From NCBI GenBank assembly GCA_017985015.1, contig JAGNYI010000007.1, positions 33,395 to 97,394 on the forward strand: 64,000 nt of DNA, in the 5' to 3' direction. Both the position numbers and the translations under genes were made by a program. The notes beneath the pieces are model-generated. The model saw nothing but the letters and a program-made list of their open reading frames with translations. It ran no database searches and was not told the origin of the DNA. Source of the DNA: Giesbergeria sp. GTDB lineage: Bacteria > Pseudomonadota > Gammaproteobacteria > Burkholderiales > Burkholderiaceae_C. Numbering within the stretch: the stretch's first letter is position 1; every line of letters starts with the position of its first letter. Positions 4,725 through 44,814 of the stretch are shown piece by piece.

Positions 4725-5705
4725 ATGAACGCCTGGCCACACCTGATTGCACCCACCGCCCACGATGTCGTGGAAGCCGCCCACCGGCTCAAAGGCATCG
4801 CGCACCGCACGCCGGTGCTGCGCTCAAGTACGGCGGACGAACTGCTCGGGGCGCAGGTTTTCTTCAAGTGCGAGAGCCTGCAGCGCAGCGGTTCGTTCAA
4901 GTTCCGCGGGGCTTACAACGCGCTGGCGCAGCTCTCGCCCGAGCAACGCGAGCGCGGCGTACTCACCTTTTCGGCCGGCAACCATGCGCAGGCCATTGCG
5001 CTGGCGGCCCGCATGCAGGGCATACCGGCGCTGGTCGTCATGCCGCACGACGCGCCGTCTTCCAAGATGGCGGCCACCCGTGCCTATGGCGCCCAGGTAG
5101 TCACCTACGATCCGCTCACCGAAGACCGTGAGGCCATCAGCCGCAAACTCTCAGACGAGCGCGGCATGGCGCTCGTGCCGCCCTCGGACCATTTCGACGT
5201 CATTGCAGGCCAGGGCACGGCCGCGCTGGAGCTCATCGAAGAAGTGCCGCGCCTGGACGTTCTCTTTGTCGGCGTCGGCGGCGGCGGCCTGCTCGCGGGC
5301 AGCCTGCTCGCCGCCAAAAGCACCTTGCCGCTGTGCCGCGTGTACGGCGTGGAGCCCGAAGTAGCCAACGACGGCCAACAGTCGCTGGCCAGCGGAGAGA
5401 TCGTCGAAATCGCCTGGCCGCGCAGCACCATTGCCGACGGCGCGCGCGCCACGGCACTGGCGCCCTTGGCGTTTGACATCATCCAGCAAGGGGCCGAAGG
5501 CATCGTCACCGCCAGCGACCCGCAGTTGATGGAGGCCATGCGCTTCTTTGCCGAGCGCATGAAAATCGTCGTCGAGCCGACCGGCGCGCTGGCGCTGGCC
5601 GGCGCCCGCCACGGCGGCTGCGACGTACGCGGCGCGCGCGTGGGCATCATCGTCAGCGGCGGCAACGTCGACCTCGCGCGCTACGCCCGCTTTCTGGCAG
5701 ACTAG
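4725..5705 (+). CDS. Threonine/serine dehydratase-like PLP enzyme
   Basis: This 326-residue fold-type II PLP enzyme resembles catabolic threonine/serine dehydratases and threo-3-hydroxyaspartate dehydratases. The Schiff-base lysine is K59 in SGSFKFRGAYN. The SAGNHAQA motif and the glycine-rich phosphate-binding loop VGVGGGGLLAGS are present. It lacks the C-terminal ACT regulatory region of biosynthetic IlvA (about 500 residues), so feedback control by isoleucine is not expected. Family knowledge does not fix the substrate: threonine, serine or 3-hydroxyaspartate are all possible. It stands alone between a membrane protein and upp. Confidence 0.9.
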   Translation: MNAWPHLIAPTAHDVVEAAHRLKGIAHRTPVLRSSTADELLGAQVFFKCESLQRSGSFKFRGAYNALAQLSPEQRERGVLTFSAGNHAQAIALAARMQGIPALVVMPHDAPSSKMAATRAYGAQVVTYDPLTEDREAISRKLSDERGMALVPPSDHFDVIAGQGTAALELIEEVPRLDVLFVGVGGGGLLAGSLLAAKSTLPLCRVYGVEPEVANDGQQSLASGEIVEIAWPRSTIADGARATALAPLAFDIIQQGAEGIVTASDPQLMEAMRFFAERMKIVVEPTGALALAGARHGGCDVRGARVGIIVSGGNVDLARYARFLAD

Positions 5706-5850
5706 GATGAAACACCCCCCTATGTCGCTTCGCTCCCTCCCCCCGCTCTCCCATCGCTGCGCGATGCGGGCAGGGGGACGCTCCCAGCGCAGCGGGGCGG
5801 CCCTTGCGCGGGAGCCCTGGCTTGAGCCGCGCCAGTTCCATGCGTCGCGG
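5706..5850. repeat. Intergenic GC-rich repeat of the CCCCCT...GGGGGAC type
   Basis: Between the dehydratase stop and upp lies a GC-rich stretch with CCCCGCTCTCCC facing GGGCAGGGGGAC, then GCAGCGGGGCGGCCC and a GGGAGCCCTGGCTTGA tail. I recognise this layout as a frequent noncoding repeat of Comamonadaceae intergenic spaces. Related but shorter units occur at 62853-63030. Possible roles are transcript-end structure or simple dispersed repeat; nothing coding is visible. Confidence 0.45.
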
Positions 5851-5910
5851 ATGCTGCGAATGCGCAATGGTTAACTGATATTCCCCACTTTTTCTTTTCC
5901 CCTTTTCTTC

Positions 5911-6540
<630 letters not shown>

Positions 6541-6567
6541 GCCTCGCTATTTCGTCCAGCGACCGCG

Positions 6568-8064
6568 TCACTCTTCAACGGCCTCCGCCAGATCACTGGC
6601 AACCAGTTGGAATTGGGCCAGCGCCGCTTGCAGGTCTTCCACGATCTCCAGGGCAATCACGCCCGGTGCGGGCAGGTTGTCGCTGTCGGCCAAGCTTTCA
6701 TCTTTCAGCCAGAAGATGTCGAGGCTGGTCTTGTCGCGGGCAATCAGCTCGGCGTAGCTGTAGGCGCGCCAGCGGCCATCGGGGTTCTCGGTTGACCACG
6801 TGGCTTGCCGCTGACGGCGGTTGCCCGCCTGGTACAGCTCCACAAACTCGTTCAAGTCGTCGCGGCGCAGCGGGTTGGTCTTGAGCGTGAAATGCTTGTT
6901 GGTGCGCAGGTCGTAGATCCATAGCTGCTTGGTCCACGGTGTTTCACTGGCGCCCTTCTTCTCGAAGAACAGCACATTGGCCTTCACACCCTGGGCGTAG
7001 AACAGGCCGGTTGGCAGGCGCAGCAGCGTGTGCACATCGCATTCGTGCAGCAGCTTCTTGCGGATGGTTTCGCCCGCCCCGCCTTCAAACAGCACGTTGT
7101 CGGGCAACACCACGGCCGCGCGGCCGTGGGTGGCCAGCAGGGTCTTGATGTGCTGCACAAAATTGAGCTGCTTGTTGCTGGTGGTGGCCCAAAAGTCGTC
7201 GCGCTCAATGGTGTCCTTTTCGGTGCTGGTGCGGCCGTCTTCGCCCACGATGACGGTGCTGCTCTTCTTGCCAAAGGGCGGGTTGGCCAGAACCACCTCG
7301 TAACGCTCGCCGGGGTCGGCGGCCAGTGCGTCGCCCACCACTACGGGCACGGATTTTTCGGAGCCAATGCCGTGCAGCAGCATGTTCATGGCGCATACGC
7401 GAGCTGTGCCGTGCACCAGCTCGTAGCCGGTGAAGGCTTTCTCTTTCAGGTGCTTGAGCTGGTCGCGCGTCAGACTCTTGTTGTGGGCGGTGATGTAGTT
7501 GTGCGCGGTGAACAAGAAGCCGCCCGTACCGCAGGCCGGGTCGCATAGGCGCTCTGCTGGCAGCGGCGCAATGCAGTCGACCATGGCCTGGATCAGTGCG
7601 CGTGGCGTGAAGTACTGGCCTGCGCCGCTCTTGGTGTCTTGCGCGTTTTTCTCCAGCAGGCCCTCATAGGCATCGCCTTTCACGTCGGCGCCCAGAATCG
7701 TCCAGGTCTCAGCGCCGATCAAATCCACGATCACGCGGCGCAGCTTGGCCGGGTCTTGAAACTTGTTTTGCGCCTTGCCGAAGATCAGGCCCAGCGTGCC
7801 CTTCTCCTGCCCCAGCTTCTCCAGCAGGTGGCGGTAGTGGTCAAAGAGCTCGTCGCCGTCCTTCGCCAGCAGCGTGGGCCAGGCGTAGGCGGCGGGCACG
7901 ATGCTGGCCTGGTTGTAGGGGGGCGCGCTGCGCTCGTCGGCCATCTTGAGGAACAGCAGGTAGGTGAGCTGCTCCACATAGTCGCCATAGCTCATGCCGT
8001 CGTCACGCAGCACGTTGCAATAGTTCCAGAGCTTCTGGACGAGGGAGTGGGTGGTGGTGTTCAT
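6568..8064 (-). CDS. hsdM: Type I restriction-modification DNA methyltransferase (M subunit)
   Basis: This 498-residue protein is the N6-adenine methyltransferase subunit of a type I system. It has an N-terminal HsdM_N helical region, then the AdoMet motif DPACGTGGF at residues 175-183 preceded by GQYFTPRALIQAM, and the catalytic NPPF at 261-264. With HsdS it would methylate the host target site; with HsdR it forms the restriction complex. Its ATG overlaps the stop of the nucleotidyltransferase gene as ATGA. It is unusual in being five genes away from hsdS and last in the apparent operon. Confidence 0.97.
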   Translation of the reverse strand: MNTTTHSLVQKLWNYCNVLRDDGMSYGDYVEQLTYLLFLKMADERSAPPYNQASIVPAAYAWPTLLAKDGDELFDHYRHLLEKLGQEKGTLGLIFGKAQNKFQDPAKLRRVIVDLIGAETWTILGADVKGDAYEGLLEKNAQDTKSGAGQYFTPRALIQAMVDCIAPLPAERLCDPACGTGGFLFTAHNYITAHNKSLTRDQLKHLKEKAFTGYELVHGTARVCAMNMLLHGIGSEKSVPVVVGDALAADPGERYEVVLANPPFGKKSSTVIVGEDGRTSTEKDTIERDDFWATTSNKQLNFVQHIKTLLATHGRAAVVLPDNVLFEGGAGETIRKKLLHECDVHTLLRLPTGLFYAQGVKANVLFFEKKGASETPWTKQLWIYDLRTNKHFTLKTNPLRRDDLNEFVELYQAGNRRQRQATWSTENPDGRWRAYSYAELIARDKTSLDIFWLKDESLADSDNLPAPGVIALEIVEDLQAALAQFQLVASDLAEAVEE

Positions 8065-8750
8065 AGGTCTTTCAATTTTGCAATCTGGGTCAACCGTGCC
8101 TTGACGGTGGGCTCACGCTCCGGGTCGCTCAGCAAGCCGGGCAGGGCGTTGTGGAAGGCGGGTATTTGCAGCAGCGCTGCGGCTGCCTGCGCCACATGCT
8201 GGCGCACAGGTGCACTGGCTGCGGCAACCTCGCGGGCCGCTGAGGCGCGGCCCTCCATCACGGTCATGATGTCTTCAAGGTCATGGCTCAGGTACACATC
8301 GTTGCCGCCACGGTCTTTAAAGGCTTCGAACTTGGTGACCAAAAAATGCGGTGCCGACAAGTGCCGCACCATCAGCCCGTCGGCCAGCTCTGCAGACAAC
8401 GCTTCTTCAAACCCCACCCGGTACCACGGGTTGGCAAAGCCCAGCACCTTTTCGTCCAATGGCACCAGGTCCAGCTGCATGCGGTGCCAGAACCAGCGAA
8501 ACGGCGGCGTGTTGTCTGCCATGGGCTGGTTAAAGCCGCGCTGCATCAGTTGTTCAGCCAGACGGTGGTAGGCGCCCAAGGTGGCTACCTCCACAATGGC
8601 GTCCACGTCTTCGGTGGGGCGCACATCCATCAGGCCTGCGTCGTCCACCAGCAGGCCCGTGGCGCAGCCACCCACAAACACCACCTGCTCACACAGCGGG
8701 CCCATGGCCCGCGCCATGCCCAGCAACATTTCGAGGTTGGGGTTAGCCAT
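8061..8750 (-). CDS. Nucleotidyltransferase, AbiEii-like
   Basis: This 229-residue protein has a nucleotidyltransferase-fold signature: FVGGCATGLL followed by VRPTEDVDAIVEV, i.e. a GG motif and a D-x-D metal pair. Such proteins include AbiEii/MenT-type toxins and related enzymes that add nucleotides to tRNA or protein. The preferred start overlaps the upstream stop by 8 bases (ATGGCTAA); an ATG 13 codons earlier (8789) is possible. The partner upstream is an HTH protein, the arrangement of AbiE toxin-antitoxin pairs. The role in this island (stand-alone toxin or RM accessory) is inference. Confidence 0.75.
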   Translation of the reverse strand: MANPNLEMLLGMARAMGPLCEQVVFVGGCATGLLVDDAGLMDVRPTEDVDAIVEVATLGAYHRLAEQLMQRGFNQPMADNTPPFRWFWHRMQLDLVPLDEKVLGFANPWYRVGFEEALSAELADGLMVRHLSAPHFLVTKFEAFKDRGGNDVYLSHDLEDIMTVMEGRASAAREVAAASAPVRQHVAQAAAALLQIPAFHNALPGLLSDPEREPTVKARLTQIAKLKDL

Positions 8751-9423
8751 ACGAAGGACTCTTTGCTTTCTTTGGTGCGTCTGGGTCAATCAGGGCTTGC
8801 AGGCGCTCTAGCGCCATGCCCCGCTCGCGGGCCTTGCCTACACGCAGGGCGTCAAACAGCGCCAGCAGTTCGTACAGCTTGGCGTCTTGCATGGCGGCAA
8901 AGGGCACGGAAGGGTGCAGGGGCTCCACCCCTACGCCGCGCACAGCGCCATTGGGGTGCGGCCATACAAAATCGGTGCTGCCCGGCGCAAACACCCCGGC
9001 AAATGCGGGCGCGCTGTGGCTGGTGGGCACACCGGCCACCAGCGGTAGCTTGACGGCCGGGAACGCATATTTGGCACCGTGCAACGCAAATTCCGCCAAG
9101 TTGCGTGCATGGGGGCGCACCGGGTTGTCGGCTACCGCTTCACCATCTGGCAAGGCCGTGCGGCGCACCCGCTTGCGTGTGACCCGGTAAATGCCCAAGG
9201 GCTCTTGCGCGTCTGGCGCAGCGGGGCCGTCAGCCCCCATCGTTGGAGGCGGTGGCTCCCGGTTCGGCAACAGCAGGCCCGCCAGCAATCCGCGCTTGAT
9301 GCAGGCATGGGCCTCCGACACGCTAATGCCCAGTTCCTGAGCCAGCCGCGCATACGTCCAGCGCTGCTCACCCCAGGCGACGAGCTTGAGGGCGACCAGA
9401 AAATCTTGGGGCTTGAGTTGCAT
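8743..9423 (-). CDS. HTH protein, candidate antitoxin/regulator
   Basis: This 226-residue protein has an N-terminal helix-turn-helix (RLAQELGISVSEAHACIKRG, about residues 26-45). A Pro-rich linker follows, then a C-terminal region with no catalytic motif that I recognise. It overlaps the downstream nucleotidyltransferase gene by 8 bases, so the two products are probably made together. A perfect 13-base inverted repeat starts only 4 bases upstream of the ATG, the expected place for an autoregulatory operator. By analogy with AbiEi/AbiEii, it could be the antitoxin and repressor. Sequence similarity to AbiEi itself was not demonstrable by eye. Confidence 0.65.
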   Translation of the reverse strand: MQLKPQDFLVALKLVAWGEQRWTYARLAQELGISVSEAHACIKRGLLAGLLLPNREPPPPTMGADGPAAPDAQEPLGIYRVTRKRVRRTALPDGEAVADNPVRPHARNLAEFALHGAKYAFPAVKLPLVAGVPTSHSAPAFAGVFAPGSTDFVWPHPNGAVRGVGVEPLHPSVPFAAMQDAKLYELLALFDALRVGKARERGMALERLQALIDPDAPKKAKSPSYG

Positions 9424-9556: not shown

Positions 9557-10426
9557 TTACTGCGCCGCTTCGGCCTCTTGAAGCTCTTTCAACGTGCGCC
9601 CATCCGCCGCCTTCCATTCAATGCGCCCATTGGCGCTGCGGCCCAGCACCGCGGCGGCGGCCGTGCTGGGGGAGCTAAAGCTGTAGTCCTGAGTGAACTG
9701 GTAAAGCCCGCCCTGCAGGCCCAACACGCCATTGCCAATCAGCTCCTGCCGCAGGTCAAACATCCCGCGCACATGCAGCGCCATGCTGGGCACGGTGTCT
9801 GCCACCGCCTGCGAACCCGCCCGCACCACAAAGCCCTGGCTGGCTTCGTAGCCCGTGGCCTGCACGCCCTTGCCCTTGCAGGTGAGCACCGGGCCGGACT
9901 TGGCGGCGGGGGCTTTGGGCGCTTGCTCAAACGCATGCACACCCAACACCGGCAGCATGCCCAGCATGTGGCCCAAAAAGACCTCCATGTCGGCCCGGTC
10001 GGCTTCGCTCAGGGACGGCTCGGCGGGCTGGTTGGCGTTGTCCAGCGGCATGCGCTTGGCGGCGCGGGCCAGGGCGATGAGGCGCGACTCCAGAAACTGC
10101 ACATGCGCCTTGTTGAGCTGCCCGGCCGTGGTGGTGGTGAAGCCGATGGCGCGGGTCCAGAAATCCTTTTGCGCATAGTGGCTCTCCAGCCGGGGGCGGA
10201 TGGGGTCGCCCTCGCCCACGTAGAGCATGTCGCCCTCACCGTCCGGGCGCGGCCCCAGCAACAGGTACACCCCGGTCTGCGCCAGCTCGGGCCGGGCCTT
10301 GACCTGTGGCAGCAGCGCACGCGGGAACACCAGCGCCTTGCCGATCCAATTGGACTTGTCGACGATGCGCAGGCCATCGGGGTCACCGTCGGCGACGAAG
10401 ATGCGGAGGGAGAAAGGGGTTTGCAT
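9557..10426 (-). CDS. GIY-YIG nuclease-like protein with DUF4357-type C-terminus
   Basis: This 289-residue protein has a GIY-YIG-like core with GVY at residues 52-54 and YVG at 69-71, followed by RPRLESH and a later FLESRLIALAR that could supply the conserved Arg and Glu. The C-terminal 90 residues (GYEASQGFVVRAGSQAV onward) look like DUF4357. Proteins of this type are frequent passengers of type I restriction loci; their function there is not established. A near-identical but truncated N-terminus is found at 12437-12607. A 20-base inverted repeat lies 14 bases upstream of the ATG. Confidence 0.8.
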   Translation of the reverse strand: MQTPFSLRIFVADGDPDGLRIVDKSNWIGKALVFPRALLPQVKARPELAQTGVYLLLGPRPDGEGDMLYVGEGDPIRPRLESHYAQKDFWTRAIGFTTTTAGQLNKAHVQFLESRLIALARAAKRMPLDNANQPAEPSLSEADRADMEVFLGHMLGMLPVLGVHAFEQAPKAPAAKSGPVLTCKGKGVQATGYEASQGFVVRAGSQAVADTVPSMALHVRGMFDLRQELIGNGVLGLQGGLYQFTQDYSFSSPSTAAAAVLGRSANGRIEWKAADGRTLKELQEAEAAQ

Positions 10427-10533: not shown

Positions 10534-12420
10534 TTACCCTTTGTTAGAAAGTCCTACCGTGCGATACGCCTGATCCGGCCGGTTGCGTACATCGGGGTAT
10601 CTCAGCTCCAAAACACCCTCGCGCACCATTGCGGTCAAAAAGCGTGATTGCAGCTTCTCGGCATCGCGATCCACAAGCGTCGCGATTTCAGACGTTGCCA
10701 ACCAGCGCCCGTCGCAGAGCTGCTGAATAAGGCCCTTGAGTTGATCCACCGGCAGCTTCTTGTTCTTGCGCGCAGGCCCAGCAATGGGCAAAAGGCCTTG
10801 AATTTCGGGCGACAGCCCGGCCAATCGGTCCAATTGGGGGGAGTTCGGCGGCAATTGGGGGGAGCCCCCGCCTAATTGGGGGGAGCTTTGGGGGGAGTCC
10901 GCCTCCAAATGAGGGGAGTCGTCACCTGATTGGGGGGAGTCCTCCGCCACGCGGTAGCTGGCCCAGCGCCGCTGGTTTTGCTGGGTAAGCAAGCCATCGC
11001 GCACCAGACTTTGCAGCACGCCGGTGATGTCTTTGGAGTGTTCGCCGGTGATTTCCTGCATGCGACTGTTGGTCACGCTGCCTTCCACCTGGGCCGTTAC
11101 CACCGCCTGCACCGCCGTCTTGTCCAGCTTGGCGAAGCGCTCGCCAAAGCGCACGCGAAGCGCCTGGTCCACTTCATCCGGTATCAGGCTGACCATGGGT
11201 AACACCAGCTTCACGCGGTCGGGTTGCAAAGATTCTTCCAGCCGGGGCGAACGCCAGTGCTGTGCGCGCCAGCCTGCCCGAATCTTGTCCATGCCCGAGC
11301 CTGCCTTGTCGCCACCACCCATGAGCTGGAACATCAGCTGCAAACTCTTGTTGCGGCATTCGCTCACGCCGCCTTGCAACAACTGCACCCGCGAAACCAG
11401 TAGCGAGCCGGGGTTGGACAGCTCAATGCGGTCCGGGTAGCGCTCAATCACTACGCCGCCCTGCCCGCGGTGGTCCGCATGCACCAGCGCGTTGACCACT
11501 GCCTCGCGCAGCGCCTCGTGCACGGCAGAGTCGTCCTTGCGGTACAGCTCGCGGTCCAGCTGGAAAGGCATTTTCAAATCGCCCGACAGGCGCTGCATCA
11601 CCCGCAGATAAAACTGGAACAGGTTGTTTTCCCAGGTGCCATCGGGCACCACGCGGTCGGTCCAGCGCACGGCGGGGTCGTCGGACAAGCGCTCGCGGTA
11701 GTCCACATGAAAACCCGGCAGCGCATCGCGCAGCGCCTCAAACCGGCCAAACATCAGCAGCCCCGCCACGGTGGCACCCTCCAAACCCGTGGCACGGTCA
11801 CGGCGCAACGCGCTCAGCTTGGTGAGTAGCGGCGCATCGTCCAACAGCAGCCACGGATGGTCTGGCGCACGGGAGGCAAAGCGGTTGCGGTATTGCTTGA
11901 CCGTTTCCGGGTCAAAGTCTGGCTGGCCAAAATGCTCCACGATTTGCGAATCGGCGGGCGTGTCGGACTGATCGGCCAGCATGCGGCGCACCTCGTCATC
12001 CGAGCAGCGGTAGTCGCCCTCATCCGCACGGCGGTAGGTGCCGGTCATGGGGTTGGGCCCCACAAACACCGGGCGCTGCAGCCGCGAGGCACGCGGCACA
12101 TTCACCACCACAAACTGGCGGCCCTCGTCTTCCACCGTGCGCACATCGTCATCGCGCAGCAGGTTGGTGCTGACCTTGTGCCGGTCATTCAGCTGGCCCC
12201 ACAGCACCGTGCGCAGCTGCGCGGCATCGGGCACGCCCTCCCACACCAAGCCGGTGGACTTTTCAGCTACGCCCAACACAATGGTGCCGCCCTGGGTATT
12301 GGCCATGGCGGAATAGGACTCCCAAAAACTGCCGGGCATGCCACCGCGCGCCGACTTGAATTCGGTGTCGATGCCCTCGGTGCTGGACTGCAGGGCGGAG
12401 AAGAGGTCAAGCTGGCGCAT
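10534..12420 (-). CDS. AlbA_2/Schlafen-type ATP-binding protein, RecG-like annotation group
   Basis: This 628-residue protein begins with an AlbA_2-like domain (EFKSARGGMPGSFWESYSAMAN, then GGTIVLGV, about residues 18-55). A GHKL-type ATPase segment follows (VHEALREAVVNALVHADHRG; IELSNPG) near residues 300-360. Winged-helix-like segments lie near the C-terminus. Residues around 495-530 form a run of SPQ/SPQL units encoded by a tandem DNA repeat. Members are often labelled 'ATP-dependent DNA helicase RecG-related' but lack helicase motifs. They recur in type I loci, with regulatory or defence roles proposed but unproven. Confidence 0.8.
   Translation of the reverse strand: MRQLDLFSALQSSTEGIDTEFKSARGGMPGSFWESYSAMANTQGGTIVLGVAEKSTGLVWEGVPDAAQLRTVLWGQLNDRHKVSTNLLRDDDVRTVEDEGRQFVVVNVPRASRLQRPVFVGPNPMTGTYRRADEGDYRCSDDEVRRMLADQSDTPADSQIVEHFGQPDFDPETVKQYRNRFASRAPDHPWLLLDDAPLLTKLSALRRDRATGLEGATVAGLLMFGRFEALRDALPGFHVDYRERLSDDPAVRWTDRVVPDGTWENNLFQFYLRVMQRLSGDLKMPFQLDRELYRKDDSAVHEALREAVVNALVHADHRGQGGVVIERYPDRIELSNPGSLLVSRVQLLQGGVSECRNKSLQLMFQLMGGGDKAGSGMDKIRAGWRAQHWRSPRLEESLQPDRVKLVLPMVSLIPDEVDQALRVRFGERFAKLDKTAVQAVVTAQVEGSVTNSRMQEITGEHSKDITGVLQSLVRDGLLTQQNQRRWASYRVAEDSPQSGDDSPHLEADSPQSSPQLGGGSPQLPPNSPQLDRLAGLSPEIQGLLPIAGPARKNKKLPVDQLKGLIQQLCDGRWLATSEIATLVDRDAEKLQSRFLTAMVREGVLELRYPDVRNRPDQAYRTVGLSNKG
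10831..10945. repeat. Degenerate tandem repeat AATTGGGGGGAG inside the ATP-binding gene
   Basis: Five to six spaced copies of (A)ATTGGGGGGAGT/C occur here, some partly decayed (GAGGGGAGTC). They encode repeated Ser-Pro-Gln(-Leu/Ser) units on the minus strand. The unit spacing is a multiple of three, so copy-number change would keep the frame. Confidence 0.75.
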
Positions 12421-12436
12421 GTTGACTCACAAAAAG

Positions 12437-12607
12437 ACTACCAGTCTGCGCCAACTCGGCCCGCGCCTTGACCTGCGGCAGCAACGCACGCAGGAACACC
12501 AGCGCCTTGCCGATCCAGTCGGATTTTTCGACGATGCGCAGACCGTCGGGGTCGCCGTCGGCGACGAAGATGCGTAGGGAGAAAGGGGATGGATTGATGT
12601 CACTCAT
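12437..12607 (-). pseudogene. Truncated N-terminal duplicate of the GIY-YIG gene
   Basis: The reading frame starting at 12607 (MSDINPSPFSLRIFVADGD) matches the first 51 residues of the intact GIY-YIG protein almost exactly, up to ELAQTG. It then diverges into unrelated sequence and stops. DNA identity with 10275-10420 is high over roughly 145 bases. The remnant therefore forms a direct repeat with the intact copy, flanking the AlbA-type gene. It retains an ATG, but the GIY-YIG catalytic core is missing. Confidence 0.85.
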
Positions 12608-12625: not shown

Positions 12626-14884
12626 TTACGGCAAATCGAACGAAAACAGATCATCAATTTCGCCCGTACCGCGATCGACATATCCCCTATCGTCATCTCC
12701 ACCGTCATGTGAGGCTCGTTTAATGTTTCCATTGATGATGTCGCCGACATCAAAATATCTCAAAATTTCTTCGTGATCGGATTGGGTGAAGCCGATACCA
12801 TAGTCGTCCAATATTCGACCTAGCTCTTCTTTCATTAGTCTTTCAGCTCGCGAGGTGTCTTCATAATCAAATAGATCACCCAAAATATCCCTCTCAACAA
12901 TTTCCTCCTCTATGGAGTTTTGCCAATAATCAATGATTGCAGATCTGAGAGTATTTTCCAATGCGGATTGGTAATTCGATGGCAGTAGGGGCAAAATTTT
13001 CGAAACCGACTCCAATTCCTCGCGATCTAAATCTGATGCATCGAAACCCTCCAGCAGCCTCGCCAATGATTCATTTGAGATCAGCTGATTTTGCAGCTCA
13101 TATCTCAACAGGGTTGAGATCGCGGCAAGATATACGGAACATTCCTGGAGGTCGGACACAGCCTGCACGAACCGATGAATTTCCGGTATTGCTTGGCCAC
13201 TAACATCGCAATGCTGAACCGCCAACTCGCAAAGTTTAGCCATACAGATCACACTATCTGGATGCAACGAACCCGTAGTCAGTTTTGTTTTGCAGAGATG
13301 TCTAATGACATCTACGTAAACAGCGAACGTGACAATTCCATTCACTCGAAGCTTTTCGAAATTATCCAATGAACGAATATCAAATAACGCAGTCATTAGA
13401 CTAGATAGCTTTAGCGCCGACTTGGATGTCTTACGCAGTACGTAGTCAGCAATTGACGGGTTAAACAGAGTAACGGTTACGTCGTTTCCCTCAACACGTC
13501 GATTCAATACTGATCCAACCAACACCCGCATTCCCATGTCAAAGTCTGCGTCACCAACATAATTTCTGACCAAAGCATCAGACGAGAGGCTCTCGTAGCA
13601 ACGAAGAAGTCTGCGTTCGTCGATACTGCCACCAGCGAACACAACCAACAGGACTGTTAGTCGCGACCAGTCCGTCAACTGGCTACTGAAAACATGATCC
13701 CAAACGTCAATTGGATTTTGCAGAGTTCTTTCAATATAGCTCCAGTAATCTATTGGCATCACTCCAGTGAATCTGGACGGGTCAGTAATGAACGCGATTA
13801 GGCGTGGGTTGAAATTTGGGTGCCGAATAATTGTCCAATACTTTTGTTTGGCAACAATGACCTCCAAATACTCACGGGGAAGCCTAGAAAACCACATTCG
13901 ACTGTGCAGTATTCTGGCCTTATCAATTTCTGATAAGCACTTGACTTCGATTTCCAACTCGTGTTGCTCCAATTTCGCGAGCTTGAACCGATCGGTCAGA
14001 GTCTTCCCCCGATTCAGCACAGTGGACCGTGAAGTGAGAATAAATCTTTTATTTTTATCTTTACTCACACGTTGAATGAATCCAACAATGTGCGAATCCT
14101 CATGCCTGTTAAGAACTGCAAGGAAGTTGCTGCCAAGGAAATCGTCGAAGTAGAAAACTTGCTTTGCATCGTCCTGATATAAAGACTCAAGTTCTTCGAT
14201 CTGCCTGGCAGCTACACACAATTGGTAGCCGTCAACTGCATACTCCAAGCAAAGCTGCTCGGCCAAAGTCGTTTTACCGATTCCCGGCTCTCCGGTTATC
14301 AGGAGTACCCCTAGCTTCTTGACCTTTTCTCTCGCAAGTACATGACTAGCTGTCTGGACATATGCAGAACTTCGCTCTCGAATTTCTTGCAAGGTAAAGG
14401 CGCTTCGACCCAAGATGGCCGCATTCGCAAGCGTTGCGAGAACTTCCGTACTGTGTAGCCATAGCTTGAAATGAGACTTCTCAACATGCCGATGCTTTCG
14501 CAATAGGTCATTAATGTCTTCGCATCCGAGCACATCAGAATCGTTGTGCATGAATTTCCCGAAGACTGACCTAATTTTTGTTTTATCGGCTGCAGACAGC
14601 GGTACTGACGTTGCGATGATGTAGCGCTTCGGATTTAGGTGAACGACTTTCGCGTACTCCGTATTCTTTAAAGATCGCAAGAGTGCAGCTAAACCAGACT
14701 TAGCCCAGTGTTTACATTGAAAAATTACCTGTCCCCCAGAAGGGGCAAAGTACCTTCCATCGATGCCGCCGTCCCTGCCTGCCTTGAATCGCTCGAATCT
14801 AATGTTGTGCTCGATTGACAGTAGGTCGGCAACAAGAACCTCAAAGTCTTTGTCGTTCAGACTGGAAAAGTCGTAATAGGTCAT
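12626..14884 (-). CDS. Restriction endonuclease-STAND NTPase fusion (nSTAND3-like)
   Basis: This 752-residue protein starts with a PD-(D/E)xK nuclease domain of Mrr type: E15, D42 in GGIDGRY and Q56-C-K58 in FQCKHW. A P-loop NTPase follows with Walker A GEPGIGKTT at 198-206 and Walker B FYFDDF at 244-249, then FILTSRS. This is the layout of STAND NTPases, probably the nSTAND3 group. The C-terminal 300 residues are helical without recognisable repeats. STAND-nuclease proteins are phage sensors in Avs and related systems, so DNA cleavage upon sensing is inferred. Base composition is visibly AT-richer than neighbouring genes. It lies 37 bases after hsdS and was probably inserted into the RM operon. 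Confidence 0.85.
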   Translation of the reverse strand: MTYYDFSSLNDKDFEVLVADLLSIEHNIRFERFKAGRDGGIDGRYFAPSGGQVIFQCKHWAKSGLAALLRSLKNTEYAKVVHLNPKRYIIATSVPLSAADKTKIRSVFGKFMHNDSDVLGCEDINDLLRKHRHVEKSHFKLWLHSTEVLATLANAAILGRSAFTLQEIRERSSAYVQTASHVLAREKVKKLGVLLITGEPGIGKTTLAEQLCLEYAVDGYQLCVAARQIEELESLYQDDAKQVFYFDDFLGSNFLAVLNRHEDSHIVGFIQRVSKDKNKRFILTSRSTVLNRGKTLTDRFKLAKLEQHELEIEVKCLSEIDKARILHSRMWFSRLPREYLEVIVAKQKYWTIIRHPNFNPRLIAFITDPSRFTGVMPIDYWSYIERTLQNPIDVWDHVFSSQLTDWSRLTVLLVVFAGGSIDERRLLRCYESLSSDALVRNYVGDADFDMGMRVLVGSVLNRRVEGNDVTVTLFNPSIADYVLRKTSKSALKLSSLMTALFDIRSLDNFEKLRVNGIVTFAVYVDVIRHLCKTKLTTGSLHPDSVICMAKLCELAVQHCDVSGQAIPEIHRFVQAVSDLQECSVYLAAISTLLRYELQNQLISNESLARLLEGFDASDLDREELESVSKILPLLPSNYQSALENTLRSAIIDYWQNSIEEEIVERDILGDLFDYEDTSRAERLMKEELGRILDDYGIGFTQSDHEEILRYFDVGDIINGNIKRASHDGGDDDRGYVDRGTGEIDDLFSFDLP

Positions 14885-14921: not shown

Positions 14922-16325
14922 TTATGCAACAAAGGATGTGTGCAAAATTGATTGCCGCAACGCCTTCGAGCGCTGGAGGTTGGCGTCGACCTCGGCTTCG
15001 ACTTCGCGGATGATGGACAGGTGGCGGTCGACTTCGGCGACGATTCGGGCTTGCTCTGCATAGGGCGGAACGGGCAATGCAATAGAACTGAAGTTCGCCA
15101 AGTTAACTTTCAACTGCGCAACGCCTTTTGTGATTCCCAAGATTTGGTCTTGCACGACCCGCGAGGCCATGGCGTACTCAATGAATGACGGATCGATGCC
15201 GAGTTTGGTCACCCGTAACTTGATGCAATCGGCAGTAATCACGGCAGGTGGGCGATTCGCCGGATAGCGGCACACATCCCCCGGTGGGTCACCCATCTTG
15301 GTCACAAGAATATCGCCAGCCTGCACCGAGTGCGCCGAAAGCTCTGCTGCCTTGTCAGTAGTGACGTAGACAGTGTTTTCACCACCGAATGACCCAGAAC
15401 GGATATTGCGCACAAAGACCAAAGGCACACCTTCGGTCTTGTAGTCGCTCACCTTCAAACTGCTACCAAAAGGACCAATCGCCAATGAATATGGTTCGCC
15501 TGCGGACACCTGCTCAGGCGAGGCCCAAGCCCAGCCTTCAGGCAATTCAGACACAGACTCCATTTCAGGATTCACTGGCTCACGGTATTTGCGCTTGCCC
15601 GCCCACTTCGCCCGCCGCTCCTCAAGAATCCGCTGCAAGAGTTGTTCGCCGGTTTCGTAGGTGCGGCCTTCACGGCGGGCCAGGGTGGCTTCGGTTTCTA
15701 CGAGGCGGCCTTCGACGGCGGCTTTGAGGACGGAGGCTTTGTAGCGTTTGAGGTTGGCTTTGACTCGCTGGAGGTTGGCGACGGCTTCGTCGAGGCGGGA
15801 GAACTGTTTTTCGAGTTCGGCGACGATTTCATCCTGCTCGCCAACCGAGCGCAACGGAACTTCAAGCGAAGTTATCTTCTTCTGATTTAGCGAAGACTGG
15901 TTCACGGCATGCTGAGCAATCGCCATGAACACACCTGTGCGACGGCAATAGTCGAGCCAATGGTGAAGATACTTGGGACGCAAACGATTTGAGTCCACTC
16001 GCAGGCGCAGCAGGTTCATACCGTGCAGAAGTGGTGCGTCGGAAGGAACGATCGCAGTCTTTCCCAAATGCAGATCGCTGTTGATGTGACTAAAGAGAAT
16101 GTCTCCCTTCCTCAGCCAAAAGCTATCAAGGCTCTTGCCTGCGGTATCACGGACATAACGCACGCGGTCCATGTCAACCGTACCCTTTGATATCGTCTCA
16201 ATCCTGGTAATCGGGATGCCGGGCAATTCCTTTTCCTGCTCGACAACAAGGCCGTTGCGGATGTCAGTCAGCAGTTCACCCAATGGAACAGTCGTAACCG
16301 CGGGCACATCTAGCACTTCACTCAC
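14922..16325 (-). CDS. hsdS: Type I restriction-modification specificity subunit
   Basis: This 467-residue protein has the two-fold HsdS layout: a first target-recognition domain (about 10-165), a conserved coiled region (FSRLDEAVANLQRVKANLKRYKASVL), a second recognition domain (about 260-420) and a C-terminal helix (VDANLQRSKALRQSIL). It sets which bipartite DNA site the complex methylates or cuts; the site cannot be read from the sequence. The ATG overlaps the hsdR stop by four bases (ATGA). Separation from hsdM is unusual. Confidence 0.95.
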   Translation of the reverse strand: MSEVLDVPAVTTVPLGELLTDIRNGLVVEQEKELPGIPITRIETISKGTVDMDRVRYVRDTAGKSLDSFWLRKGDILFSHINSDLHLGKTAIVPSDAPLLHGMNLLRLRVDSNRLRPKYLHHWLDYCRRTGVFMAIAQHAVNQSSLNQKKITSLEVPLRSVGEQDEIVAELEKQFSRLDEAVANLQRVKANLKRYKASVLKAAVEGRLVETEATLARREGRTYETGEQLLQRILEERRAKWAGKRKYREPVNPEMESVSELPEGWAWASPEQVSAGEPYSLAIGPFGSSLKVSDYKTEGVPLVFVRNIRSGSFGGENTVYVTTDKAAELSAHSVQAGDILVTKMGDPPGDVCRYPANRPPAVITADCIKLRVTKLGIDPSFIEYAMASRVVQDQILGITKGVAQLKVNLANFSSIALPVPPYAEQARIVAEVDRHLSIIREVEAEVDANLQRSKALRQSILHTSFVA

Positions 16326-19105
16326 GCCGCCAACTCCCGATTCAGTTCCTCAATCACCTTGGGCAGTTCCGCGCCAAAGAGCTGGTGCACCTTGCCCAGG
16401 CCGCCTTGGGCGTTGAAGGGGGCGTATTCAAAGTCGTCTATCTCAATGCCAAGGTTGGCGGCGATGTGGTCGCGGATCATTTCTAACCAGTGTTGTTGCT
16501 CAGTGGTGAACGGGTTGTTGTCTGTCTGTTGGTGCTGGGCCAGCCAGGCTTTGAAGTTGGCCTGCACGCGCTCGGGGTAGGGCACGAGTTCGTTGGTCTG
16601 CTGCATGGCAAAGCGCACCAGGCTGACCAAATCGGTGAGCAGGCGGCGCTGCTTGGCGCCTTTGACCTTGTCTTTGCGCAGCGTGGCGTAGGCCTGCCAC
16701 AGGGCGCCTTCGTCGATGTTCACGGGCGGGGCGTGCAGGGCATCGGCGAGAAGCTGAACGTCTTCAAACTTGAGCGGCGCGCGCGTGGGGCGGCTGTACA
16801 AAATTTGCAGGGCGGTGATTTCGTCTTTGTGCTGGGCAATGAACTGCTCAAAGCTTTGCACCAATGCGGTGGCGCGGTCGCTGCCCACCGTAAAAGCGGC
16901 ATCCAGCAAGGTGTCTTTGGTGACGGTGTCAATCACCAAGTCTGCCTTTCGCTTCATTTTTAATAGCTGCTCTCGCAATGCTGGCGCGCGGAAAGGCCAT
17001 ATTGAATCTCTCAAACGTTGCTCGGCCTGGGCGGGTGGCATGTCTTGGGTGGCGTCGATGGCGAGCGCATCCACAATGCCGCGCGCCAGGTCGCGCAGGG
17101 TTTTGCCGCCGCTCAACTCCACCACCTTGGCGCGGTCGGCGTCGCTGGCGTCTTTGTCCAGTCGGGCCAGGCGGGCGGCGATGCTGCTCAGCACCTCGTC
17201 TTCCACATTGCCCAGGCTTACGGCCTGCAGCAGTTTGTCCAGGGGCACGCTCTTCTTGGCGTCCATGGGGCGGCTGTCGGTTTTGTCGCGCTCGCACACG
17301 CCCACGCAATCGACGATGACGAAGTGGTCTTTCTTGATGTGTTCGCCGGGGTTCACAGCGGCCAGGTCGGTGGGGTTGCACACGCGCACGCCACGGCCTT
17401 TCATTTGCTCGAAGAAGCTGCGGCTTTTCACACTGCGCATGAAGACGACGATTTCCACCGGCTTGATGTCGGTGCCGGTGGCGATCATGTCCACGGTCAC
17501 CGCCACGCGGGGGTAGTAGCCGGTGCGGAAGTCTTTGATGAGCTGCTCCGGGCTGGTGCCGCCGCCCTGGGCGCTGCGGTAGGTTATCTTTTGCGCGAAC
17601 TCGTTGCCGCGGCCAAACTCTTCGCGCAAGATTTCCACAATCTTTTCGGCGTGGTTGTCGTCTTTGGCAAAGATCAGGGTTTTGGGCAGCTCGGTGCGGG
17701 TGGGGAACATGTCGGCCTGCCAGCGGTCCCGCAGGGTGCGGACCACGGTGCGGATCTGGTCGGGCGTTTGCACGGCGCGGTCCAGCTCTTCGGGCTGGTA
17801 TTCAAAGTCGTCGTCCAGCTGCCAGGCGGTCTTGCGGCGGGTGGCTTTGTCTTGCGTTTCCAGCCAGAAGCCTTTGTCTACCTTGGCGCCCTGCTCGCTT
17901 ACCTCGGTTTTGATGCGGTACACGTCGTAGTTCACATTCACACCGTCGGCCACGGCCTGGGCGTGGCCGTATTCCATGACCAGGTTCTGGTTGAAGAAGC
18001 CAAAGGTCTGCTTGTTGGGCGTGGCGGTCAGGCCAATCAGATACGCATCAAAGTACTCCAGCACCTGGCGCCACAGGTTGTAGATGCTGCGGTGGGCTTC
18101 GTCCGTCACCACAATGTCAAAGCTCTCGATGGGGATGGCCGGGTTGTAGCCAATGGGCTCGGGGTCTTTGAACAGGATCTCAATCTTCTCGGTGGATTCT
18201 TCGTCGGCGTCTTCGGCCAGCTCGCGCCCCTTGAGCATGCTGAACATGCGCTGGATGGTGCAGATGACCACGCGGGCGCTGGTGTCCAGCTGGTTGCCCT
18301 GCAGGTGCTGGACGATGTATTCCTCGCCAAACTTGTAGTTGTTGTAGGGCGAAGCGTAGGCGTCAAACTCTTTCTTGGTCTGGCGGGCCAGGTTGCCCCG
18401 GTCTACCAGGAAGAGCACCCGGCGGGCACCGCCAAACTTGATGAGGCGGTAGATGAAGCCGATGCTGGTAAAGGTCTTGCCGCTGCCGGTGGCCATTTGG
18501 ATGAGGGCCTTGGGTTTGTTGGCGGCGAGGCTTTTCTCCAGGTTGGTGATGGCGCTGATTTGGGCGGGCCACAGTGCATAGTGCGCGCCGCCGCTGCCCC
18601 ACTCCGTCACCAGTTTGGGCATGCTGCGCATGCGGGTGAGGAAGGTGCCCGCCTCCTGCTGCGCCGAAGAACCCACCTGCACTGGCAAATAGGCCAGCCA
18701 CTGCACCAGCAGCTCGGGGCGGAAGAAGGCGAATACGCTTCTTGCGCGTGGCTCGGGGTCCAGGCCGTTGGTGAAGTGGGTCTCAACCCCGGTGGACTCC
18801 CAGAGGAATGGCAAGGGCCTGCGCCATGCGGGCAAGCTGGCGGGCAGGCCTTGGGCGTAGCGGCCAGACTGCACTTCCACACCCGTGAGCGTGGCGCCCT
18901 CTTTCTTGGCCTCGATCACGCCGCAGGCCTTGCCGTTCACATAGAGCAGGTAGTCGGCAAAGCCAAACCCGGAGTTGAGGGGGAACTCGCGGATGGCGAC
19001 GCCAAGGGCCGCATGGATGTTCGCATCGGCTACGCCGCAGACATGCCAGCCCGCTGACAGCAAGAGTGCGTCTATCGTTTCGCGGGCTTTGGCCTCTGGC
19101 GTCAT
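16322..19105 (-). CDS. hsdR: Type I restriction endonuclease, R subunit
   Basis: This 927-residue motor and nuclease subunit has an N-terminal HSDR_N nuclease (D51 in FGFADYLL, then E65-A-K67). The helicase carries Walker A ATGSGKT at 205-211 and DEAH at 335-338, with later motifs TGTDIKP and MKGRGVRV. A longer frame begins at 19201, but the ATG at 19105 (MTPEAKARETIDALL) is where family similarity begins. It is the first gene of the minus-strand island; any promoter lies in 19106-19255, where I see no clear hexamers. A possible degenerate palindrome copy lies at 16950-16990 without breaking the frame. Confidence 0.96.
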   Translation of the reverse strand: MTPEAKARETIDALLLSAGWHVCGVADANIHAALGVAIREFPLNSGFGFADYLLYVNGKACGVIEAKKEGATLTGVEVQSGRYAQGLPASLPAWRRPLPFLWESTGVETHFTNGLDPEPRARSVFAFFRPELLVQWLAYLPVQVGSSAQQEAGTFLTRMRSMPKLVTEWGSGGAHYALWPAQISAITNLEKSLAANKPKALIQMATGSGKTFTSIGFIYRLIKFGGARRVLFLVDRGNLARQTKKEFDAYASPYNNYKFGEEYIVQHLQGNQLDTSARVVICTIQRMFSMLKGRELAEDADEESTEKIEILFKDPEPIGYNPAIPIESFDIVVTDEAHRSIYNLWRQVLEYFDAYLIGLTATPNKQTFGFFNQNLVMEYGHAQAVADGVNVNYDVYRIKTEVSEQGAKVDKGFWLETQDKATRRKTAWQLDDDFEYQPEELDRAVQTPDQIRTVVRTLRDRWQADMFPTRTELPKTLIFAKDDNHAEKIVEILREEFGRGNEFAQKITYRSAQGGGTSPEQLIKDFRTGYYPRVAVTVDMIATGTDIKPVEIVVFMRSVKSRSFFEQMKGRGVRVCNPTDLAAVNPGEHIKKDHFVIVDCVGVCERDKTDSRPMDAKKSVPLDKLLQAVSLGNVEDEVLSSIAARLARLDKDASDADRAKVVELSGGKTLRDLARGIVDALAIDATQDMPPAQAEQRLRDSIWPFRAPALREQLLKMKRKADLVIDTVTKDTLLDAAFTVGSDRATALVQSFEQFIAQHKDEITALQILYSRPTRAPLKFEDVQLLADALHAPPVNIDEGALWQAYATLRKDKVKGAKQRRLLTDLVSLVRFAMQQTNELVPYPERVQANFKAWLAQHQQTDNNPFTTEQQHWLEMIRDHIAANLGIEIDDFEYAPFNAQGGLGKVHQLFGAELPKVIEELNRELAA

Positions 19106-19255
19106 GCTGAATCTCCCTGCAGGGGATTCTAGGCATGCCGGTGTACCGCCCGAGACCCTCGACATAAAGGCACCAGCGCCCCATGGAACCGTACAGGGCA
19201 AGACTCCGTCACCGCCGTGGCGGATGCTTGGCCCGGCACCCGCTGCGTCAAAGCG

Positions 19256-42240: not shown

Positions 42241-43926
42241 ATGGCTACCGCGAACAAAAAGATCAAGCTGCAATCTCTTGAGTTCACAGCTTCGCCTTTC
42301 AGGAAGTTGCGGCAACTCAAGATCGACTTCGCCGACCGGCTGACGGTGATCGCTGGTCATAACGGCATTGGAAAATCGACGATCCTGGGTTTAGTCGCAA
42401 ACACTTTCGGATTGACTGCTTCAAGCGACCCGAGGCGCTACGACGGGGACCCATTCTCCGCAAACATTGAGCGCATCGTGTACTTAGCATTGGATGAGGT
42501 AGGTTTGGCTCAGGAAAATCCGTCTGATGCACCTGTTGTCACTGCGGAGGTCTTTGGAACCACGATGAGGAAGCGTTGCTCCATGACTCGGCGGAGACAA
42601 TGGAAACGCGCCCGCGTGGTTCCTCGCACCATTGAACCCAAGGATGACGATGTAGTCGGGCCCGACGCAAAGATTCCACTGCCGACGATCTACCTAGGTA
42701 TCAGGCGCTTGGCGCCGATTGGTGAGGCGGGGGAAACGGAAGTGGAAAGTCAGAAATTGAAGATGCACGCTGAAGACAATAAAGTCATGGTCGACTTCGT
42801 CAACGGCGTGATACGAGGAGTTACCGTCACCTCAGACATCACGCTTCAAAGCATTAAAGGCTCCCGTAAGAAGAGTGCACAGCCTGGTTATCCAAATCAT
42901 GAAGCGCTAGCCATTTCGTTGGGACAGGATAGTTTGGCCAGTATTGGCACTGCGCTTGCCTCGTTCAATCGCCTCAAGCGAGAACTGGGCGATGACTACC
43001 CGGGCGGCCTGTTGATCATCGATGAGTTGGACGCCGGTTTTCATCCCCACGCAATAGATCGGCTGGTCAGCACCCTCAAGACGCAAGCGCGCCGCTTGGA
43101 CCTTCAGATCGTCGCGACCACGCATTCACCTCGCCTGATTGAATCTGTTCATCCTGACGGCAAGGGCAATCTGCGTGCGCCGGACAAGGTGGTCTACCTC
43201 CTCGACACAGCCCGACCTCGGCTGGCTGAAGATCAGTCACTCGCCGCCGTGCTGAGTGACATGGCTCTCAGCAGTGATGACGACGATGCACCAGCGACGA
43301 AGCCGTCAGTCTGTGCCTATTTCGAAGACCAGGAAGCGATGCAGTTTTTCGAGGCGTTGTTCCCACCCGCCAAACGGGCAGGTTTGGGGCGTCGTCTCGG
43401 CGTTCAGATCAAACTCATTTCACTTGGCGTTTCTGGATCGCATCTAGTAGCTCTCCCCTCCAAGGATCGGATTTTCAAAGAACGCGTGCTGGTGGTCGAC
43501 GCGGATACGACGATCCCAAAGGCCGCAGCTCATCTAGGCAACACGGTTAAGCTGCCATGTGCTGCGGGCGCTCGTGGGACTGATCGTTCACCAGAAAACA
43601 CCGTTCGACTCTTTCTGCACGGTGTCGCAGCAGCGCAGGATGGGCCGCTGCAAGCTGCGCTTCGACAGTTCAGCGTAACCAATCCAAGCACCGACAGGCT
43701 TCTCGAAACCTTCTTCGGCGACGGCTCGGGCGAGAGTTCTGAAAGGACAAGTACGAAGGCGTGGTGGATCGCGAAATGGCCGAAGCTTCACAAGTGGAAC
43801 GTGATTAGCGCTTGGGCGAGCCTTCACAAAACCGAAGTCGAGCGTTTTCGAGCAGAGTTGGAAGCGGCGTGCACCGCTACCGCGACGCGTGTCAAGCTGA
43901 CGATGGCTGGCCAGGCTCGGCGTTGA
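42241..43926 (+). CDS. AAA ATPase with OLD-like C-terminus
   Basis: This 561-residue protein has an SMC/ABC-type ATPase core: Walker A GHNGIGKST at 39-47, Walker B LLIIDE at 257-262 and the H-loop THS at 294-296. The C-terminal part carries FEDQEA (E362, E365) and VVDAD (D420, D422). These are spaced like the Glu and D-x-D of a TOPRIM nuclease, as in OLD-family defence proteins, but are degenerate. It is followed after 18 bases by an adenine methylase. Together they look like a two-gene phage-defence or DNA-modification unit; this is inference. Codon and base use are less GC-rich than in the flanking genes. Confidence 0.8.
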   Translation: MATANKKIKLQSLEFTASPFRKLRQLKIDFADRLTVIAGHNGIGKSTILGLVANTFGLTASSDPRRYDGDPFSANIERIVYLALDEVGLAQENPSDAPVVTAEVFGTTMRKRCSMTRRRQWKRARVVPRTIEPKDDDVVGPDAKIPLPTIYLGIRRLAPIGEAGETEVESQKLKMHAEDNKVMVDFVNGVIRGVTVTSDITLQSIKGSRKKSAQPGYPNHEALAISLGQDSLASIGTALASFNRLKRELGDDYPGGLLIIDELDAGFHPHAIDRLVSTLKTQARRLDLQIVATTHSPRLIESVHPDGKGNLRAPDKVVYLLDTARPRLAEDQSLAAVLSDMALSSDDDDAPATKPSVCAYFEDQEAMQFFEALFPPAKRAGLGRRLGVQIKLISLGVSGSHLVALPSKDRIFKERVLVVDADTTIPKAAAHLGNTVKLPCAAGARGTDRSPENTVRLFLHGVAAAQDGPLQAALRQFSVTNPSTDRLLETFFGDGSGESSERTSTKAWWIAKWPKLHKWNVISAWASLHKTEVERFRAELEAACTATATRVKLTMAGQARR

Positions 43927-43944
43927 TCGGTAAAGTGCGTACAG

Positions 43945-44814
43945 ATGTATTCCAATAAGCTCTACACGCCGCTTCGCTACCCAGGCGGGAAGGCACGGTT
44001 CGCTCCACTCATCGTTGAAGCGATCCACTCGAACTTGCTCACGGGCGGGCACTACCTTGAACCTTATGCCGGTGGCGCTGGCGTGGCGCTGACTCTCCTT
44101 CTCGATGGTCACGTCTCGCATGTGCACATCAACGACGCCGATCCGGCTGTCGCAGTGTTTTGGCGGACCGCCACGACCCAAGCGACTGGCCTGATCGACA
44201 AGGTAGCTAACGAGCCGGTCACAATTGAAGCTTGGCATCACTGGCGCGCGGTAATGTTGGGGCAGATAGAAGCGACTGAGTTAGACCGTGGCTTTGCGAC
44301 CCTGTTTGTGAACCGAACGAACCGCTCCGGGATTCTCATGGGCGGCGTGATTGGCGGCAAAGCGCAGTCAGGCACCTACAAGCTCGATGCTCGCTTCATG
44401 CGAGACCAGATCTGCGCTCGCCTGGCTCGGATCGGAGAGCACTCGTCTGCTATCCACGTGTACGAGGAAGACGCCCTCGCGCTCCTGACCCGGTGCCATC
44501 AGTTTCTCCCGAAGAAATCCCTCGTTTACCTTGACCCGCCGTATTATGTGAAGGGCTCGGGTCTGTATCGAAATTTCTACAAGCACGTAGACCACGTGCG
44601 AATCGCGAAGCTATTGAGCAGCCGGAAATTTCGGCGGCCGTGGATCGTGTCCTACGACAACGTCGATGAAATTCGTCTGATGTACGAATACGCTCGATCG
44701 TTCACCTACGGTCTGAATTACACGGCGCAGCGTCGGTACATCGGCGCCGAAGTAATGTTCTTCGGTGATCGACTAAAGCCGCCGATGGAGATGATCGAGC
44801 AACTCGCGGCATAA
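43945..44814 (+). CDS. D12-class DNA adenine methyltransferase
   Basis: This 289-residue enzyme is a Dam-like N6-adenine methyltransferase. It shows YPGGK at 12-16, the AdoMet-binding EPYAGGAG at 39-46 and the catalytic DPPY at 197-200, in the order of alpha-class (D12) enzymes. Target specificity is not predictable, though family members often methylate GATC or related sites. It is 18 bases after the ATPase and likely in the same transcript. Its role could be to mark self DNA for the ATPase partner, or it may be a solitary methylase. Confidence 0.9.
   Translation: MYSNKLYTPLRYPGGKARFAPLIVEAIHSNLLTGGHYLEPYAGGAGVALTLLLDGHVSHVHINDADPAVAVFWRTATTQATGLIDKVANEPVTIEAWHHWRAVMLGQIEATELDRGFATLFVNRTNRSGILMGGVIGGKAQSGTYKLDARFMRDQICARLARIGEHSSAIHVYEEDALALLTRCHQFLPKKSLVYLDPPYYVKGSGLYRNFYKHVDHVRIAKLLSSRKFRRPWIVSYDNVDEIRLMYEYARSFTYGLNYTAQRRYIGAEVMFFGDRLKPPMEMIEQLAA

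Follow-up and report, generated by a model that had tools for sequence, protein, structure and literature searches.

A single-gene Mrr-nSTAND3 defence candidate with a conserved C-terminal tail in a type I restriction operon of Giesbergeria sp.

The gene, its domains and its conserved residues

The 64,000 nucleotide stretch of Giesbergeria sp. contig JAGNYI010000007.1 analysed here (assembly GCA_017985015.1, positions 33,395 to 97,394 of the forward strand), referred to throughout as the window, contains a type I restriction operon within which lies a gene encoding a predicted Mrr-type nuclease and STAND NTPase in a single chain (Table 1). Read along the minus strand, the locus runs hsdR, hsdS, the Mrr-nSTAND3 gene, a 66 aa fragment, the AlbA_2/HATPase gene, the DUF4357 gene, a 226 aa open reading frame (ORF), an AbiEii-like gene and hsdM, with the stop codon of hsdS 37 nt ahead of the Mrr-nSTAND3 start on the same strand. 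The gene, single-copy in its own genome, had been singled out in a preliminary description made from the sequence alone as a candidate phage sensor, and is a real ORF with exactly the bounds given there; the intact 752 aa frame, matching both Pfam and PADLOC profiles, excludes a chance ORF. Its DNA was also correctly described as AT-richer than its neighbours, with a GC content of 45.6% as against 61.6% in hsdR and 63.5% in the window. Since third-position GC is likewise far below that of hsdR (47.9% versus 81.2%), the gene was probably acquired from elsewhere.

Two domains are recognised above their curated Pfam cut-offs: Mrr_cat (PF04471) at residues 8-63 (8.1e-06; 26.4 bits, cut-off 21) and nSTAND3 (PF20720; 6.6e-46; 156.3 bits, cut-off 27.2). 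The catalytic E, D and QxK residues of the former and the Walker motifs of the latter are intact at the positions named beforehand (E15, D42, Q56-C-K58, 198-206 and 244-249), and the assignment of an Mrr-type nuclease and a STAND NTPase to one chain is thereby upheld. AlphaFold2 confidence is low at residues 35-50 of the nuclease domain. Conservation was assessed in an alignment of 39 proteins, the window protein included, comprising ORFs scoring above 40 bits and at least 600 aa in length, one per locus; the short proteins of relative loci L015, L023, L027 and L069 were excluded, and those of L006 and L009 are near-identical rows. E15 is kept in 36 of the 39, while D42, Q56 and K58 are each kept in 38, the remaining row starting too late; K204 and D247 are kept in 37, and D248, P360 and R286, the last of which we take to be the STAND sensor arginine, in all 39. 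Because conservation ranges from 36 to 39 of the 39 proteins, the residues originally named are not chance matches. Both Walker motifs are missing from L065 and L066, a single long-branch pair in the tree; these proteins of 651-654 aa, which form one clade, keep the nuclease residues and lack the C-terminal tail described below.

The C-terminal part is predicted by AlphaFold2 to comprise approximately 13 helices in a repeat-like arrangement. The earlier remark that no tetratricopeptide repeat (TPR) sensor array was visible therefore stands in so far as Pfam finds no TPR signature in this part, but not as regards an array of some kind, since residues 480-727 are predicted to be repeat-like. The placing of a sensor near the C-terminus is in keeping with the variable, sensor-like character of the last ~270 residues, the C-terminal regions of the 39 proteins falling into 16 BLAST clusters.

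Table 1. Positions of the Mrr-nSTAND3 gene, its domains and motifs, and the genes of the surrounding operon in the window
Feature	Position	Strand	Basis or remark
Mrr-nSTAND3 gene (PDC-S73)	12626..14884	-	ATG start, 752 aa
Mrr-like nuclease domain, residues 1-130 (E15, D42, Q56-x-K58)	14495..14884	-	Pfam Mrr_cat
nSTAND3 NTPase domain, residues 175-331	13892..14362	-	Pfam PF20720
Walker A GEPGIGKTT, residues 198-206	14267..14293	-	Alignment and sequence
Walker B FYFDDF, residues 244-249	14138..14155	-	Alignment and sequence
ILTSR, residues 282-286	14027..14041	-	R286 kept in 39/39
Variable all-helical C-terminal part (sensor candidate), residues 480-727	12704..13447	-	AlphaFold2; BLAST clusters
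C-terminal tail motif IDDLF, residues 743-747, after acidic linker	12644..12658	-	Pattern and alignment
hsdR	16322..19201	-	Pfam EcoEI_R_C, ResIII, HSDR_N
hsdS	14922..16325	-	Pfam Methylase_S
66 aa fragment	12407..12607	-	Residues 6-59 83% identical to start of DUF4357 gene
Slot gene, AlbA_2/HATPase_c_4 protein, 628 aa	10534..12420	-	Pfam
Slot gene, DUF4357 protein, 289 aa	9557..10426	-	
Slot gene, 226 aa ORF	8743..9423	-	Paired with AbiEii-like gene
Slot gene, AbiEii-like protein	8061..8789	-	Weak, below Pfam cut-off
hsdM	6568..8064	-	Pfam N6_Mtase, HsdM_N

The PDC-S73 family and its C-terminal tail

Residues 1-748 of the protein match positions 1-750 of the 752 in the profile of PDC-S73 (PDLC05079), a phage-defence candidate listed by PADLOC, with 825 bits (2e-248). 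By this full-length match the window protein is a member of the family, from which it differs in nothing essential; PADLOC states no mechanism. Such PDC names were reportedly introduced in a preprint by Payne and others, and a literature search on 'PDC-S73' found no paper naming the family. The suggestion that this was an undescribed subtype is not tenable, as the family is listed and Mrr_cat-STAND-repeat proteins are mentioned in the accessible text of a published study (PMC9122126); both the defence-candidate family and the Mrr_cat/STAND domain combination were thus already known.

Members are patchily distributed. A scan of named genomes for relatives yielded 27 loci, and at 1e-40 PDC-S73 was found in 11 of 398 genomes of the phylum, including the source genome, two of the 11 matching in the nuclease part only. 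Among 369 genomes of the class, 114 had matches at 1e-3, mostly to the P-loop only, and eight reached 1e-30. Matches were also present in 52 plasmid records, none of which reached 80% coverage, and in two phage-labelled records; among the viral contigs scanned, 14 relatives were detected. The phyla are intermixed in a tree of 51 cores, which fits horizontal transfer of the family: the window protein clusters with Paenalcaligenes and a cyanobacterial metagenome-assembled contig (support 100/99), the latter only 3.8 kb long and possibly misplaced, and Bacteroidota, Bacillota, Lentisphaerota and Streptomyces plasmid copies fall on other branches. Two relatives, L091 (MT836015.1, labelled phage) and L080 (NZ_OP918264.1, a Pseudomonas plasmid), have zero core branch length and an identical tail; the phage label may be wrong.

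Near the C-terminus, behind an acidic disordered linker, lies a short tail motif, [ILV]xx[LM]F. It was defined on the 39 proteins (set one), with plasmid and phage records (set two) and viral contigs (set three) serving as tests. The broad pattern [ILVM]xx[LMIFYV]F occurs in the last 45 residues of 32 of the 39, compared with a mean of 3.6 and a maximum of 13 across 1000 shuffles, 64 of 432 other ORFs from the same loci, and, when other parts of these proteins are scanned, 1 to 13 of 36-39. A stricter form, [ILVM]xx[LM]F, is found in 29 of the 39 (shuffles, 1.2; control ORFs, 34 of 432). The tail pattern recurs in 12 of the 14 proteins of set two (shuffles, 0.8; maximum 5) and 13 of the 14 of set three (0.9; maximum 4), although the tails of L080 and L091 are the same, and L137 and L142 duplicate L003 and L008, such that the new members of set three number 11 of 12. 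Shuffling leaves common descent in place; the tail nevertheless persists although the sensors preceding it have diverged. The pattern is missing from L019, L022, L026, L065, L066, L072 and L078 in set one, four of which (L022, L026, L072 and L078) have the F aligned and another residue four places earlier, as well as from L084 (annotated as 538 aa) and L090 in set two and L140 (574 aa) in set three.

In a 23-row alignment of the C-terminal part, no column other than F747 is invariant; the alignment omits L015, L019, L023, L027 and L028 of the 27 scanned loci, L019 being without the tail. An L follows three places after the F in 20 of the 44 motif rows of sets one and two, and the 30 residues before the motif contain 26% D/E as against 15% in the whole proteins; together, these features suggest an amphipathic helix on a tether. 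In the class, nSTAND3 was detected in 11 of 369 genomes, eight of which represent the Mrr family itself; of the three others, two (L159 and L160) run off the end of the stretch, and the third, L161, is a closed 530 aa frame that ends without the tail pattern. The conserved tail seems to be a new feature of the family, and no tail lock for Avs-like receptors was found in the accessible text of the literature searched.

Structural models, known receptors and the proposed role of the tail

In the AlphaFold2 model of the whole protein (23 sequences; confidence 84.2, pTM 0.62), the linker at residues 728-738 falls below a confidence of 50, whereas residues 741-750 average 80. When residues 480-752 are modelled alone, the average for the tail helix (residues 740-749) is 51, a drop to which the change of alignment between the two models could have contributed. 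Most simply, this loss would mean that AlphaFold2 places the tail against residues 1-479, the nuclease/NTPase core. A Foldseek search with the whole model matched SAMD9 (7.0e-08), Avs5 (2.4e-07 and 6.8e-07) and Avs4 with a phage portal (9.6e-07), followed by Dark, the plant NLR RPP1 and Apaf-1; TM-scores are low and rmsd high, indicating related domains in related order rather than the same shape. At the sequence level, the 50 rows from VIA-align are generic AAA+ ATPases, no Avs occurs among the best 60 of 174 PDB matches listed, and no avs model is among the six PADLOC matches at 0.01 or better.

By domain order and predicted helices, the window protein has the layout of the Avs (AVAST) receptors, with an effector, a STAND NTPase and a C-terminal helical sensor in one chain. 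Avs1-4 are activated by a conserved phage protein, either portal or terminase. Avs4, the effector of which is also an Mrr-like nuclease, shares the central STAND NTPase, but its chain of 1534 aa is roughly double the length and includes an extended C-terminal sensor. Avs5, according to the accessible text of PMC12931631, carries an nSTAND3 domain, and is alike in its three-part layout and in giving the better of the Avs matches above; its effector, by contrast, is SIR2 rather than an Mrr nuclease, and the whole-length TM-score is low. The Avs5 chains among the PDB matches are 764-833 aa long, about equal to the 752 aa here, contrary to the initial impression that the protein is shorter than known Avs. 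Those STAND proteins of the P4 satellite hotspot that have an N-terminal Mrr_cat effector likewise combine it with C-terminal repeats (accessible text of PMC9122126), a likeness by description. On the strength of the Foldseek list and the nSTAND3 domain common to Avs5, the protein is read as an Avs-like receptor with an Mrr effector, a likeness by domains that does not place it in a named Avs type.

Taken as a whole, the protein, a member of the Mrr-nSTAND3 family PDC-S73, is likely to be an NLR-like sensor-nuclease that acts as a single-gene system against phages (or plasmids), and the gene is probably a defence gene; its domains and its position inside a type I locus both support the candidate defence role first proposed for this fusion. 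It represents a well-placed, testable member of a defence-candidate family, for which the literature search found no published test.

How such a receptor might be held inactive can be proposed only tentatively. At rest, the tail helix would dock on the conserved nuclease/NTPase core and keep it closed; binding of an invader product to the variable array would then pull the tail off, and ATP-driven assembly would bring Mrr domains together, allowing them to cut DNA and stop infection, possibly sacrificing the cell. The tail may accordingly be named a latch, freed once the sensor binds its phage ligand, although we hold this with less than even confidence. That Mrr-nSTAND3 proteins share this activation device, a C-terminal amphipathic helix (approximately D-x-E-I-x-x-L-F-x-x-L) clipping onto the core from a flexible acidic tether, is similarly conceivable rather than probable. 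With the lock placed on the core instead of the sensor, sensor arrays could be freely replaced while the lock stays, and such an arrangement, if real, would account for the use of a single compact receptor scaffold with many ligands. A lock of this kind would also render the off-state of compact STAND receptors and their fast sensor change directly testable, and provide a simple handle, usable for relatives in several phyla, on whether the family kills or arrests cells once unlocked.

The tail might instead be a docking peptide for a partner from host or phage, such as the sliding clamp, a partner of single-stranded DNA-binding protein (SSB) or the next subunit of an assembly; this is a serious, if rather doubtful, alternative. 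A short motif ending an acidic disordered linker would suit such a role, as would the tails of L011, L020, L025 and L028, which also end in or near -LPF ([LIV]PF) and presumably resemble the C-terminal tail of SSB. The usual beta-clamp motif, however, is QLxLF, and Q stands four residues before the F in none of the 36 rows having the tail F, leading us to reject a beta-clamp binding peptide. The fall in tail-helix confidence on removal of the protein's own residues 1-479 also argues for an internal partner over an external one.

The restriction operon, its slot and other possible roles

Given its Mrr-type catalytic domain, the protein could be a modification-dependent, type IV-like restriction enzyme, in which the C-terminal array would read methylated or foreign DNA, the NTPase would move or assemble the protein on DNA, and the trigger for Mrr cleavage would be DNA and not a phage protein. 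Its gene adjoins a type I methylase, hsdR and hsdS, and a profile search against the PDB gave weak P-loop matches to McrB (E ~0.001). Type IV Mrr/McrBC systems, however, use a GTPase or a stand-alone nuclease where the window protein has STAND, and Pfam finds no DNA-recognition domain in it; an array in 16 clusters fits changing protein ligands better than a single DNA mark, and the whole-model matches are Avs and NLR proteins. We regard this role as unlikely.

Less likely still is that the protein helps or guards the host type I enzyme, for instance by firing upon inhibition of HsdR, HsdM or HsdS, as PrrC does for EcoprrI. In favour of such a role are the gene's place inside the operon, close behind hsdS, and a second embedding, hsdM-gene-hsdS-hsdR, in Arenibacter (L025), which is independent and distant from the window protein in the tree. 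Relatives of the window hsdR at 1e-150 or better were found in 37 of 399 genomes of the order, its own included, and nine of the 12 regions compared around them contain hsdR, hsdS and hsdM. All nine have the order R-S-insert-M, with an S-M gap of 1.5 to 7.2 kb, and all nine lack the Mrr-nSTAND3 gene at 1e-5. Conversely, only five of 35 relative loci of at least 6 kb match the window hsdR, hsdS or hsdM, one of these (L070) being a helicase without HSDR_N; since the search was made with three queries, and some contigs break off nearby, divergent type I genes may have escaped it. The fusion is thus embedded in the type I loci of the window and Arenibacter, but is absent from the nine related operons, and 30 of the relative loci show no match to the window hsd genes; on these counts, a fixed subunit of the operon is rejected.

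The related operons contain 29 slot ORFs of at least 90 aa, ten of which, from eight loci, were run against PADLOC; six match at 1e-10 or better (RT-associated SLATT, PDC-M11A, PRTase_III-A, PDC-S28, PDC-S06 and, partially, PDC-M36A). With these six matches, and with R-S-insert-M kept in nine of nine operons without this gene, the S-M slot carries, by its predicted gene content, exchangeable defence cargo. The surroundings of relatives are also defence-rich: 133 neighbour ORFs matched 238 PADLOC models at 1e-10, compared with 38 matched by 132 control ORFs from distant parts of 10 of the same genomes, about half of the matches shown belonging to one kinase family. These models overlap, so that the counts are not of systems, and mean ORF lengths were 355 aa for neighbours and ~318 aa for controls. 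Across the annotated plasmid loci of relatives, no gene recurs as a constant partner. Although STAND proteins include transcription regulators and a MalT-related complex (8bob) is in the Foldseek list, a regulatory or housekeeping protein with no defence role is very improbable in view of the nuclease residues kept in 36-38 of 39 proteins, the patchy presence in the phylum, the foreign GC content and these neighbourhoods.

Several further observations concern the loci themselves. In L079, a Prosthecochloris plasmid, a diversity-generating retroelement (Avd, reverse transcriptase and formylglycine-generating-enzyme-like proteins) lies directly upstream of the relative, at 5099-9000. Within the slot, the AlbA_2/HATPase_c_4 gene is matched at 90% identity by a copy occupying the corresponding slot in L116, a genome of the same family, and the 226 aa ORF and AbiEii-like gene, at 8061-9423 adjoining hsdM, remain paired in L116, L121 and L122. 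A 148 nt direct repeat, 90% identical between 10272-10419 and 12441-12588, duplicates the start of the DUF4357 gene on either side of the AlbA_2 gene and is, judged from its sequence, a trace of insertion or recombination within the slot. Several slot ORFs without a Pfam match in L116-L126 could be new defence genes, the cargo there including a reverse transcriptase plus PRTase. Elsewhere in the window, a second lower-GC stretch (42241-44814; 52.6-58.2%) has an AAA_15/AAA_21 ATPase adjoining a D12-class adenine methyltransferase, which may be a defence pair.
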